Shown here piece by piece: positions 31,675 through 36,810 of a DNA stretch of 36,810 nucleotides (the stretch's first letter is position 1; every line of letters begins with the position of its first letter). The stretch lies in contig SYLG01000037.1 in NCBI GenBank assembly GCA_005808665.1, forward strand, positions 1 to 36,810. Direction: 5' to 3'. The translations under genes were made by a program, and so were the position numbers. The stretch comes from Planctomycetia bacterium. Its GTDB lineage: Bacteria; Planctomycetota; Planctomycetia; Gemmatales; Gemmataceae. The notes beneath the pieces were generated by a model. The model saw only the letters and a list, made by a program, of their open reading frames with translations, was not told the origin of the DNA and ran no database searches.

Positions 31675-34600
31675 CTAGCTTACAAAAATGCCTTGGGAGT
31701 TGGTTCGAGAACTTGCTAGGAACTCGAAGACCAAATCTAGCGTAGAATGAAGGTACCCACTACCCGGAGGCGTGAGGCGAAATCCCTTAACCTGGGGAAT
31801 TCCTCCGCGACCAGGCCCGGTGATCAATTCCTGGATTCCATCCCCATTCCCATCCGAAACCCCCAACCGAACTCCTCCTGTAAACTCTTGATCATAAGCC
31901 AAAAGCCGACAAAAAACCGCCCTTGTAAAGGGATTCCAAACAATTATCTCTGGACCTCCCCCCGCTCCCGGTCCCGTGATAACTTCGCTGGTCCCATCTT
32001 GGTCCAAATCCCCACCACTAACAAAGACTCCTCCCCCGAAGCCTTGGTCATAGGCATACCACTGGGATAGAATCTGCCTAGTTGATCCATCAAACACCCG
32101 TACATGCGGACCACCACCCGGTCCTGCACCGGTCACCAAATCACGAACCCCATCCCGGTTGAAATCCACCGCACATATGCTCACCCCTCCGCGGAAATTC
32201 TCCGAATATGCGTAAAATGAACACAACACCGATAGGTCGACCCCATTGAAAATCTTCACATGTGGACCGCCTCCTGGCCCCGCTGCGGCGACGATATCCA
32301 TTACCCCATCAATGTTGTAATCCAGAGTGGAAACATTAACCCCTCCGGCAAAATCCTGGCTGAAAGCGTAAAACGCGCGGAGCACCTTTCGCGTAAGGGA
32401 ATCAACGATTGCTATCGCAGGGCCTCCTCCGGCCCCGGCACCTGCGACAATGTCTGCAACGCCGTCGCCGTTGAAATCACCATTGTAGTCGCCATTGGCA
32501 AGATGGATCTCACCCCGAAATCCCGGAAAAGGGGTTACCCAATTACCTGTCACAAGGGCCCCGGAATAGCCCTCGTTAATCCTGCTCGATGAGGATTCAG
32601 GTGAGCTGACATAAAGGGCTGGTGGTGCTATGCCCCCAGCAGCGAAGGCGCCAATATCGGACCCTGCCCTGGAAGGTGTTATTGGTTTATTAACCCTAGT
32701 GTAGCCCCGCTGATCTAGTCCATTAATTGGAGAATCATCGCTGATCAGATAACCGCCAGTCCCATAGGCTGCGCTATCCTTAAAAATTGCCATGGTGAAG
32801 GTGGGGCCTCCATTATCTTGGAGGGGCCCAAGCTTTGGTTTTCCAACAATGGCACCAAAGTCATAATTCGGACTTGTGTCGATTGGTAATGATCCGTCGG
32901 TTTGTAGGTTATTCATGAAATTCCCGGCTAACGCAAGCGGGTACCCGTGGTAATCCCCACCGGGATTATTGGCAATAATGGTATTTTGCAGGGTTAATGA
33001 GGGATGAATAATCCAAGGAAAGGAATTAGGCACACGAGTCAATCCACCACCATAACTAGCATCAATTCCACTGCCACTGCTAGCTTGATTAGAGGCTATC
33101 GTGCAGTTAATTATTTCCGAATTGCTTGTGGTATAGATGCCGCCCCCGTTGTTTTTAGTGCGATTTTCAGCTACGGTGGAATTTATAATTGAAAATGGGG
33201 CGGTAGGCCTAGCAAGGAGGATGAATGCGTTGATCAGATTTTGTGGCCCAGGGATTGTACCAAATGTAAAGGCGAAAATGCCGCCTCCATTGTTACCGGC
33301 TTCATTGCCTGAGACAGTAGAATTGGAAAGTAGGAGAGTGCCTGATTTATCGATAAAGATTCCTCCGCCATTGCCTATTTCTTTAAAATAGGAATCGATG
33401 AAATTGAGGTGGACATTATCTCCATTTGCAATATTATTTTTGATTGTAGATTCATAAACTGTTATATCGCCGTCGGCGTAAATACCACCGCCATTATCAT
33501 TTGCAGTGTTATTGGAAATAGTAGATCTATAGATGTTGGTATAGTATTCTGGTACATTAGGAGGTGTGCTGGCTTTAACGATGTAGATACCTCCTGCATC
33601 GCCATCAGAAATATTATGGGAAACTGTGGAAAAGTTAACATCAAGGTAGCCATAGTTGACAATTCCACCGCCACGACAATATTGATTTTCCTGTGTGGAT
33701 ATTGTAGTATTAATTGAAACAAGGCAATAATTAATAGTCACCTTTCCTCTATTATAAATCCCACCACCCTCGTTTCCAACAGCCTTATTATTGGACACTT
33801 CGCAATGGTCGAGGGTTAGGGTGCCTGAATTATAAATACCGCCGCCGCCTTTTTCGGTTCCATTTGCAGTGTTAGAAAAGATTGTGGAATCATTGATGGT
33901 GAGTGGGCCGGTGCTTTCATTAAAGATACCTCCCCCTAGTCTTGCCTTGTTGTCTGAAATTTTGGAATCTGAGGTGATCGATAGTAAACCGGTGCCCGTG
34001 TTGTGAATGCCGCCCCCATCACCCAAATTGTCGACTATAAAATTCCCGGAGATGGTGGCATTAGTGAGAAAGATTCTGCCTTCGAGGGTGTTGCTGATCC
34101 CGCCCCCTACGCCATTATTATTGGTTACCGAATTCCCGGAGAGGGTGGATTGGGTGACTTCAAGAGTACCATTGCCGGTGTTGAAGATGGCTCCGCCAAA
34201 ATCCCCCGCCTGGTTATCCCTGAGGGTGCTATTGCCAAACACCCTGGTGGTACCACTGTCGGTGCTGATGGCGCCGCCACGGGCGGTCGCGGAATTGGTT
34301 GAAAGCGTGGAACTGCTGCTGATGTTGACGGTGCCAAAGCGATTGAAAAGGGCTCCCCCCCGTCTGCCCGCAAAATTTGCATCAAGGGTGGATGATATTA
34401 CCTCCACATAACTGCTAAGGGGACCGTCACCGTAATTGAAAATTCCTCCACCATCGGTGACGGCGGTATTCCCTGACAGGGTGGAATTTTGTACGATGAC
34501 CTTGCCATCAAAATGGTTGCTTATGCCCCCACCATTTTCCGCCTTATTGTTCGAAATGGTGGAATTGGACACGGTAAGGGTGCCTGTGTCATTGCGGATG

Positions 34601-35163
34601 GCCCCACCAAAATCACCTGCAGTATTGTTGGTTAGGACACAATTCCTCACCTCGACTGTCCCGTCACGGTTGTAAAGGGCTGCGCCGCTGCCGGTACTGG
34701 TTCTTGCCCCGGAAAGGGTGACACCTCTCAGGGATAGATCTCCTCTGGAAGCGATGTTGAAAATACGAAAATCACGGGAGGAACTGCCAGTATTGCCATT
34801 GAGAGTCAAATTGTCAGAACCCGGCCCTTCAATGCGCAGTCGACCTGCGGTGGCGGTGGAGACAATGCTCGGAAGTGTGGAGGTCAGATTAATCGTACGC
34901 ACAGAATCACCAATGGCAAATACAATGCTATCATCTGCTTTTGTCCCGTTGGCTTGGGTGATCGCATCGCGCAAAGTACCCGCACCGGAATTTCCAAAGG
35001 AGGTCACCGTGTAGGTGGTTGGCGTAACCCGTTCCTCGAGGCAAAGCAGTTCCGGCTTAAAGGGGATTGCCTCCTTTTTCGACCTGCAGATGGGATTGGT
35101 TCCTGAATGATCCCTAAACCAGGTGGCCAAGTTCCACTTTGCCAAAGAAAAATACCTTTTCAT
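31675..35163 (-). CDS. Giant secreted beta-helix / FG-GAP surface protein
   Basis: This is a 1162-residue protein with a strong AGGAG ribosome-binding site. The N-terminus carries basic/hydrophobic MKRYFSLAKWNLATWFRD and, near residue 43, the planctomycete motif LCLEERVTPTTY, linked in that phylum to exported surface proteins. From about 100 to 830 there are many Gly-Gly-(Gly/Ala)-Ile-(Phe/Tyr)-Asn turns every 25-40 residues (GGGISN, GGAIFN, GGGIYN and similar, around 17). They alternate with NSTxSxN strands, a right-handed parallel beta-helix as in Pmp-like or pectin-lyase-like passengers. From about 905 there are four or five FG-GAP-like repeats (DFNGDGVADIVAGAGAGGGP, then GPGGGPHVKIFNG, GPGGGPHVRVFDG). 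Likely a cell-surface or extracellular protein. Its ligand is unknown. Confidence 0.9.
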   Translation of the reverse strand: MKRYFSLAKWNLATWFRDHSGTNPICRSKKEAIPFKPELLCLEERVTPTTYTVTSFGNSGAGTLRDAITQANGTKADDSIVFAIGDSVRTINLTSTLPSIVSTATAGRLRIEGPGSDNLTLNGNTGSSSRDFRIFNIASRGDLSLRGVTLSGARTSTGSGAALYNRDGTVEVRNCVLTNNTAGDFGGAIRNDTGTLTVSNSTISNNKAENGGGISNHFDGKVIVQNSTLSGNTAVTDGGGIFNYGDGPLSSYVEVISSTLDANFAGRRGGALFNRFGTVNISSSSTLSTNSATARGGAISTDSGTTRVFGNSTLRDNQAGDFGGAIFNTGNGTLEVTQSTLSGNSVTNNNGVGGGISNTLEGRIFLTNATISGNFIVDNLGDGGGIHNTGTGLLSITSDSKISDNKARLGGGIFNESTGPLTINDSTIFSNTANGTEKGGGGIYNSGTLTLDHCEVSNNKAVGNEGGGIYNRGKVTINYCLVSINTTISTQENQYCRGGGIVNYGYLDVNFSTVSHNISDGDAGGIYIVKASTPPNVPEYYTNIYRSTISNNTANDNGGGIYADGDITVYESTIKNNIANGDNVHLNFIDSYFKEIGNGGGIFIDKSGTLLLSNSTVSGNEAGNNGGGIFAFTFGTIPGPQNLINAFILLARPTAPFSIINSTVAENRTKNNGGGIYTTSNSEIINCTIASNQASSGSGIDASYGGGLTRVPNSFPWIIHPSLTLQNTIIANNPGGDYHGYPLALAGNFMNNLQTDGSLPIDTSPNYDFGAIVGKPKLGPLQDNGGPTFTMAIFKDSAAYGTGGYLISDDSPINGLDQRGYTRVNKPITPSRAGSDIGAFAAGGIAPPALYVSSPESSSSRINEGYSGALVTGNWVTPFPGFRGEIHLANGDYNGDFNGDGVADIVAGAGAGGGPAIAIVDSLTRKVLRAFYAFSQDFAGGVNVSTLDYNIDGVMDIVAAAGPGGGPHVKIFNGVDLSVLCSFYAYSENFRGGVSICAVDFNRDGVRDLVTGAGPGGGPHVRVFDGSTRQILSQWYAYDQGFGGGVFVSGGDLDQDGTSEVITGPGAGGGPEIIVWNPFTRAVFCRLLAYDQEFTGGVRLGVSDGNGDGIQELITGPGRGGIPQVKGFRLTPPGSGYLHSTLDLVFEFLASSRTNSQGIFVS

Positions 35164-35516: not shown

Positions 35517-36137
35517 TTAGTGACCCGTGGATCCATCCAGGAACCCTTTTGGGAGATGATCCTTGTATTCCTTGGTGCTAACCTTATTGTCTCCATCCTT
35601 GTCTGCTTCCTGAATTTTTTGCCAAACGCCCGGTGGCACTTCGGATTGGGTAAGGAATCCGTCTTTGTTTGAGTCAAATCGTGAAAAAACACGGTCGGCG
35701 GAGGGCATGGCAATCGGTTTTTCCGGAAGGTAGTGTTGTTCGGTACTTTTGAGCATGGCGGACCAGGTTTCGCGCTGTCCAGGCTTCAGGATCAGGGCAA
35801 CCTCGGCGTCCATTGCTTTGAAAATATCCAATTGTTTGGGATAGGATTCGGCTCTTAAGGACTCAAGGGATTCGTAATGTCGTTGCAAAATTCCCTCGAT
35901 TTTGGAAGCCTGGCCAACATCCAGCGACAAATCCGAACGCAACTTTGCCAATAGCTTTTCTGGAATCAAATGGGGATGTTTCATTAATTGGATCATTTGG
36001 CTGCGCATCCACAAGGCACCGCCCACCCCACCTACAATGGACCCACCAAAAAAAACGATCCCCAACATCAGGATCCTGGTCCAACTCCTTGTTCCGGAGG
36101 GTGGCTTTGCGATAAGATGCCCTGAGGAAACATTCAT
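35517..36137 (-). CDS. Membrane-anchored Spy/CnrX-like protein with EF-hands
   Basis: This is a 206-residue protein. A membrane helix at about 20-43 (WTRILMLGIVFFGGSIVGGV) leaves the rest in the periplasm. Residues 55-130 form a helical region with the LSLDVGQASKIEGILQRHYE and ILKPGQRETWSAML pattern found in periplasmic Spy/CpxP and CnrX/heavy-metal-sensor proteins. Two EF-hand loops follow: DSNKDGFLTQSE (155-166) and DKDGDNKVSTKE (179-190). It overlaps the 87-residue membrane gene by 4 bases, and that gene overlaps a sigma region-4-like gene. In CnrYXH-type systems a periplasmic sensor controls an anti-sigma and sigma pair, so a metal- or calcium-responsive regulator is a reasonable but unproven reading. 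Confidence 0.8.
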   Translation of the reverse strand: MNVSSGHLIAKPPSGTRSWTRILMLGIVFFGGSIVGGVGGALWMRSQMIQLMKHPHLIPEKLLAKLRSDLSLDVGQASKIEGILQRHYESLESLRAESYPKQLDIFKAMDAEVALILKPGQRETWSAMLKSTEQHYLPEKPIAMPSADRVFSRFDSNKDGFLTQSEVPPGVWQKIQEADKDGDNKVSTKEYKDHLPKGFLDGSTGH

Positions 36138-36397
36138 GACAACACCGTCACAAAAGGAAGGGCCAGGGCAATAAGGGTATCTTCACTCATTCCCATCCAG
36201 AACACAACCAAAGCCGTACCCGCCGCAAGGCACGAACCGATGCAAAAACCAAGGTATTCAGGCTCCAGGCTTTTCCTCCTCAATGGGCGAGACTGGAGAG
36301 TAATCAGGACTCGCTGTGCGACATCAGTACCAGTACCCGTTTCCACCGCCGCCTTGGAGGCAAGCTGCACGAATCGTTTCAGGGGTTCGGTTTTCAT
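36134..36397 (-). CDS. Small membrane protein, possible anti-sigma-type factor
   Basis: This 87-residue protein has a charged N-terminal half (MKTEPLKRFVQLASKAAVET, then VLITLQSRPLRRKSLEPEY) and a hydrophobic C-terminal half with two closely spaced helices (FCIGSCLAAGTALVVFWMGM and TLIALALPFVTVLS). Such a layout, with a cytoplasmic N-tail and membrane C-half, is common for small anti-sigma factors. There is no recognisable ZAS zinc motif, and no homolog is recognised. Its ATG overlaps the stop of the sigma-like gene as ATGA, with AGGTGAG as ribosome-binding site, and its own stop overlaps the next gene as ATGA. Translational coupling of all three is likely. Confidence 0.7.
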   Translation of the reverse strand: MKTEPLKRFVQLASKAAVETGTGTDVAQRVLITLQSRPLRRKSLEPEYLGFCIGSCLAAGTALVVFWMGMSEDTLIALALPFVTVLS

Positions 36398-36717
36398 AGC
36401 TCACCTTTCGCAATCAGATTTTTGAGGCGTATCCGGGCCCTGAATGCTCTGACCCTAGCACCCACCAGGGTCCAACCCGCCCGATTGGCAGCTTCAGCCA
36501 TGGTGCAACCCTCCAAATAAAGAAGGGTTAGGATCAGGCGATCCGAGGGTGAAAGCTGTGCCAACAGATTAAATACCAACTCCCCAGCCTCCAATTGTGA
36601 TAATGGGCCACCGTCCGGCCCACGCAAGGACTGCCAGGAATGTTTAGACAGGGCAACCCTTTTGTTCTTTGCAGTAATTCCCGGCTTCAAAAAAAAGATG
36701 CGCCCTGATTTACCCAT
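36394..36717 (-). CDS. Stand-alone sigma-70 region-4-like protein
   Basis: This 107-residue protein starts at ATG 36717 with AGGAG upstream; an earlier TTG at 36780 also keeps the frame open. The C-terminal half is a clear ECF sigma region 4: LFNLLAQLSPSDRLILTLLY-type lead (here ELVFNLLAQLSPSDRLILTL), then LEGCTMAEAANRAGWTLVGA with the -35-binding helix-turn-helix, and VRAFRARIRLKNLI. Region 2 (-10 and core binding) is not visible: the first 50 residues are basic and unlike region 2, and the upstream frame to the window end gives no region 2. It may be a truncated sigma, an anti-activator-type DNA binder, or a fragment whose region 2 lies beyond the window in another frame. Operon leader of the three-gene cluster. 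Confidence 0.7.
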   Translation of the reverse strand: MGKSGRIFFLKPGITAKNKRVALSKHSWQSLRGPDGGPLSQLEAGELVFNLLAQLSPSDRLILTLLYLEGCTMAEAANRAGWTLVGARVRAFRARIRLKNLIAKGEL

Positions 36718-36785
36718 TGTGAAAGGTCTCCTGTTGAGACACTGTTTTTGGTTGAGCGACAGGCGGTAATATGCGATCAAAGAGT

Positions 36786-36807
36786 GGTTCAGAGGTGGTC
36801 CTGAACC
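36786..36807. promoter_or_regulatory. Perfect 7-bp inverted repeat upstream of the sigma-like gene
   Basis: GGTTCAG (36786-36792) and CTGAACC (36801-36807) are exact inverted copies separated by 8 bases, about 70 bases upstream of the sigma-like ATG on its template side. It could be an operator or a small hairpin. The match is short, so chance is possible. Confidence 0.4.
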
Positions 36808-36810
36808 GAC

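Follow-up and report, generated by a model that had tools for sequence, protein, structure and literature searches.

Can a sigma factor that lacks region 2 head a signalling unit resembling CnrYXH? The question arises at the end of the window (the whole analysed stretch of 36,810 nt, constituting the entire contig C3 of its source genome), where ORFs for a 107-aa sigma-like protein, an 87-aa membrane protein and a 206-aa anchored sensor follow each other (Table 1). A preliminary description had read them as three overlapping, ATGA-joined genes, the first encoding a sigma factor without region 2. The minus-strand ORFs and both overlaps are confirmed: the sigma stop codon occupies 36394–36396 and the ATG of the 87-aa gene starts from 36397, and the stop codon of the latter occupies 36134–36136, with the sensor ATG starting from 36137. 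The sigma factor itself requires another reading: we are confident that the best overall explanation of the locus is an ECF sigma gene split by an insertion sequence and heading a conserved unit of sigma, short transmembrane (TM) protein and sensor. Beside the trio, a 1162-residue protein is encoded (31675–35163, minus strand). Many of its repeats resemble a beta-helix passenger; its C-terminus carries FG-GAP-like repeats, and a CLEERVTP motif lies close to its N-terminus.

Table 1. Features of the three-gene unit, the adjoining mobile element and the second half of the sigma gene (window positions unless a contig is named).
Feature	Position	Strand	Basis or remark
Sigma-like, short membrane protein and sensor ORFs	35517–36717	minus	two ATGA overlaps
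ECF sigma gene, 3' half (linker end, region 4 and stop codon)	36394–36671	minus	Sigma70_r4_2 match
87-aa protein with one predicted TM segment, VDVxxRV family; putative anti-sigma of CnrY-like size	36134–36397	minus	homologues, ATGA overlaps
206-aa membrane-anchored Spy/Metal_resist-like sensor with C-terminal EF-hand pair	35517–36137	minus	family profile and Pfam
EF-hand loop 1, DSNKDGFLTQSE	35640–35675	minus	canonical calcium-binding loop; Pfam EF-hand_1 match, residues 148–166
EF-hand loop 2, DKDGDNKVSTKE	35568–35603	minus	canonical acidic spacing; orthologous loop conserved in G011
ISAs1-family insertion sequence, right end	36672–36810	minus	repeat boundary; C3 ends inside the element
9-bp target-site duplication, right copy, CAAAGAACA	36663–36671	minus	same 9 bases before the left end on C155
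Sigma gene, 5' half with region 2	C155:75984–76293		terminal on contig C155, next to the left end of the element

A profile of the sensor core was run over 398 genomes of the class, and relatives were found in 32 of them. Regions 2 and 4 of sigma are encoded in one ORF upstream of the sensor at 28 of the 30 class loci examined, the two exceptions being this genome and G377, where the contig ends inside sigma; all 28 intact sigmas match the Pfam models of both regions. The gene order sigma – short membrane protein – sensor is kept across families, and tight gene overlaps recur in the trios of relatives, so that the search for the same order in planctomycetes, proposed earlier, shows the trio to be conserved at about 30 loci of the class. 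It was not found in two other genomes of the same genus, and no sensor relatives were found on plasmids. Our literature search found no description of the planctomycete trio, some papers on planctomycete ECF groups being outside its coverage.

The short one-TM protein with the VDVxxRV motif, encoded between sigma and sensor, was aligned from 24 loci, the window included. The 87-aa protein has no Pfam match, its family gave nothing meaningful in a PDB profile search, and neither Pfam nor the PDB profiles yielded a sequence match to any known anti-sigma. Published anti-sigmas of the CnrY kind share almost no sequence (PMC7406223). By analogy, we consider it plausible that this protein is a putative CnrY-type anti-sigma.

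Common to the sensors are an N-terminal anchor, in which F29, G32, and G36 are near-invariant (in the window's sensor, the N-terminal helix is consistent with a membrane anchor), and the core motifs L-x3-Q, LRxExxP, and LxxxQ; predicted helices span 60–69, 74–93, 99–114, and 119–136. The family profile matches Spy at 4.6e-6 and, far more weakly and below threshold, NccX. Pfam Metal_resist (PF13801) is matched by 14 of the 30 sensors at E up to 0.01, with bit scores of 26.2 and 27.1 in the two members scored in detail vs. the cut-off of 29.2; the window's own sensor is not among these matches. Five of the 30 match LTXXQ. The Spy and Metal_resist profile matches bear out the assignment of a Spy/CnrX-like sensor made in the preliminary description. 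The structure model of the sensor (two sequences) has pLDDT of 61 overall and 81–87 in parts of the core only, and the Foldseek / VIA-align comparison with it gave generic helical bundles, with Spy and CnrX absent among the matches listed.

Is this protein a sensor at all? It is possible, though we think it the less likely reading, that it acts as a Spy/CpxP-type periplasmic chaperone, being a sigma target or a passive feedback partner and not a signal input, the EF-hands forming a general cation-stabilised domain. The family profile, fitting Spy far better than NccX, points in this direction, and so does the core alignment, where, as regards the His/Glu/Met metal-ligand set of CnrX, no His, Cys, or Met column is shared by half of the 30 members (H87 in 13/30, H54 in 9/30; CnrX itself is not in the alignment). 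On the other hand, a chaperone does not account well for the gene order and tight overlaps conserved across families, and the N-terminal anchor recalls the membrane-anchored CnrX, not the soluble Spy. A signalling role of the trio remains our preferred reading, and by analogy we hold it to be rather probable for the relatives: the short membrane protein would act as a CnrY-type anti-sigma and tether sigma to the membrane, the sensor would control this tethering, and a periplasmic signal (a metal or other cation, or envelope stress) would alter the sensor and thereby free sigma.

EF-hands were accepted if a 12-residue loop D-x-[DN]-x-[DN]-G/N ... E was accompanied by a Pfam match. The window's sensor has two canonical loops in its sequence and matches EF-hand_1 with 33.3 bits (cut-off 25.4), and thus the two EF-hands reported earlier stand; the unusual calcium-type input suggested with them does not stand as a defining feature, as the EF tail is optional and present on only three of the 30 sensors (this genome, G011, and G366). 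More often, the EF-hand pair, with the shared pattern of about DxNxDGxLxxDEVPxxxWxRLxxADxNxDGxVTxxE, is encoded by a separate small gene directly upstream of sigma, both in this genome (C155:75576–75839, the same as L054:5577–5840) and in G011, G193, G328, G290, and G322; the stretches of relatives with the pair upstream of sigma are L044:7596–7976, L118, L119, L120, L124, and L125. In G131 the pair shares one open frame with sigma, and in G179 and G396 it belongs to a large gene immediately downstream. A scan of the same-strand sequence around the trio loci revealed no further pair of this kind. As judged from sequence, the EF-hand pair is a recurrent neighbour of the unit, carried additionally on the sensor in this lineage, where the sensor tail may have gained a pair similar to the one in the small upstream protein. 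It is rather doubtful that the calcium-type pair, as a secreted upstream partner or fused to the sensor, is the periplasmic input and that sigma answers Ca2+ or another cation; owing to this association, a cultivated relative could serve to test an ECF sigma for such an input. In G193, the EF-hand gene and the trio have upstream of them the gene of a 1137-residue protein (L118:1833–5243) that by eye looks like a heavy-metal RND efflux pump; near the other trios scanned, nothing similar turned up.

The search for the missing part of sigma used G011, a related Gemmataceae MAG (record JAIBBI010000056), in which the sigma of the trio has 195 aa and contains region 2; a scan of genome contigs gave this orthologue only. 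In the window's genome, this region 2 has one strong match, C155:76026–76283 (67% identity), the next-best ones being distant ECF factors (24–26%). The half on C155 matches Pfam Sigma70_r2 with 30.2 bits (cut-off 24), and the window half, Sigma70_r4_2 with 33.2 bits; in the 107-aa ORF, Pfam finds region 4 alone and no region 2. Thus, of the domain content assigned earlier, region 4 is retained, and the lack of region 2 is refuted: the observation named in the preliminary description as refuting it, a region 2 belonging to this gene and complete just beyond the window, was looked for and found, across the mobile element, on C155.

The final 139 bases of the window recur about 20 times in the genome, mostly with 96–100% identity and nearly always at contig ends. 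The copies have a common boundary (...GAATTACTG), being alike up to ...GCCGGGAATTACTG and diverging immediately after, which places the boundary at 36672. With the boundary there, the repeat contributes the ATG (36715–36717) of the "107-aa sigma" and also its first 15 residues, whose codons lie within the element's right end. Contig C88 has the same right end and, just before it, the C-terminal part of an ISAs1-family transposase (NF033564, E 1.3e-8, below the model's full-length cut-off, as only the C-terminal 36 residues match), and contig C18 has a degenerate copy of the element with a DDE transposase. The ends of the element are short inverted repeats, the left end being the inverted counterpart of the right one. 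The transposase C-terminus by the right end, the short terminal inverted repeats and the uniform direct target duplications of 9 bp are those of the ISAs1 family; the difference is that no full-length copy of the exact element was recovered, because the copies collapse at contig ends.

Contig C155 ends 139 bases past CAAAGAACA followed by CAGCAATTCCCGGC... (the element's left end), and hence CAAAGAACA flanks the element on both sides, at the left end on C155 and at the right end in the window. Joined as an empty site, the flanks of C155 and C3 yield an uninterrupted, in-frame 192-aa ECF sigma, aligned without gaps at the junction with the 195-aa orthologue from G011. This ORF combines regions 2 and 4 in one protein with no region 3, as expected of ECF factors, the gene itself being split in this genome. 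No read or contig was seen to span the element, and the link between C155 and C3 is based on homology, the reading frame and the duplication. We conclude that the "107-aa sigma" is a chimera, and the original gene is an ordinary full-length 192-aa ECF sigma cut by an ISAs1-family element. The element entered the gene between regions 2 and 4, making the 9-bp duplication, and the assembly broke at the repeat, leaving the gene halves on C155 and C3.

Among the copies fetched, 14 left and 21 right flanks form 11 unique pairs, C155–C3 being one of them, each with exactly 9 bases shared, vs. the chance expectation of about 0.001 (14 x 21 / 4^9). Contigs do end in a collapsed repeat, with only 139 bases of each element end present, and one may suppose that the split is an artefact of assembly or of a mixed population, the gene being intact in most cells and a minority insertion or a chimeric join at the repeat having broken the contig. 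We consider this very unlikely, as the exact 9-bp duplication on two separate contigs is the mark of a real insertion, the ten other pairs behave alike, and the genome yielded no contig carrying the site intact. The assembly as a whole is broken by about 20 ISAs1-family copies, and the 9-bp duplications allow the two sides of 11 insertion sites to be matched up across contigs.

Least probable of all, almost to the point of being negligible, is a genuine region-4-only regulator (DNA-binding or a decoy) working with the membrane protein and the sensor, or an expressed chimeric ORF with residual function: the ORF is open, and AGGAG ten bases upstream of its ATG means that the region-4 fragment could be translated, but the start codon belongs to a mobile element, C155 has the rest of the gene, and all 28 relatives whose upstream sequence is complete encode region 2 in the same ORF. 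A region-4-only sigma as an evolved design is ruled out by the insertion sequence boundary, the C155 half, the 9-bp duplication and the full-length sigmas of relatives. The outward AGGAG–ATG with the frame open to the tip is a feature of the element's right end (36715–36735, minus strand) and is seen at other right ends too; insertions in the right frame could yield translated fusions with the adjoining gene.

Given the split sigma gene, the sigma output in this genome is probably dead, because the cut separates the two promoter-binding regions of sigma, and the 87-aa protein and the sensor are expected to be left without their sigma partner here, unless the chimeric fragment has some function. 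The source genome thus provides a natural interruption of the sigma gene. The case shows that a contig end within an insertion sequence can give rise to a gene chimera whose start codon looks convincing. With the false "region-4-only sigma" removed, the finding comes down to a conserved planctomycete unit: an ECF sigma, a short membrane protein and a Spy-like sensor, with the EF-hand module fused to the sensor or encoded beside sigma.

Compared with known systems, the sensor resembles Spy / CpxP (LTXXQ) in the Spy profile match, the repeated L-x3-Q helix starts and the LTXXQ matches of some members, and differs in its N-terminal membrane anchor and in the company of its gene, which lies with those of an ECF sigma and a short membrane protein. 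The comparison of the trio with CnrYXH, made in the preliminary description, holds, given its conservation in the class and the profile matches of the sensor, and by analogy a CnrYXH-like signalling role is plausible. As in CnrYXH / NccYXH, the Ni/Co ECF signalling systems of Cupriavidus (PMC4803752, PMC7406223), an ECF sigma, a CnrY-sized single-TM protein (here the putative membrane anti-sigma) and an anchored helical sensor are encoded side by side, and the sensor family matches Metal_resist in 14 of 30 members and, below threshold, NccX. On the contrary, the planctomycete order is sigma – short membrane protein – sensor and not Y-X-H, and three of the planctomycete sensors carry the EF-hand pair. 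The trio thus resembles CnrYXH by anatomy; membership is not claimed, because the short protein has no sequence link to CnrY, no conserved His/Cys set is seen in the sensor core, and release of sigma is proposed by analogy only. CnrY is a class II anti-sigma whose two helices wrap sigma (PMC7406223), and Ni or Co releases CnrH from the CnrYX complex (PMC4803752). In Cupriavidus, selection favours insertion sequences in cnrY or cnrX because sigma is thereby freed (PMC4803752); unlike these cases, here the insertion hit sigma itself, and therefore a loss of output is expected.
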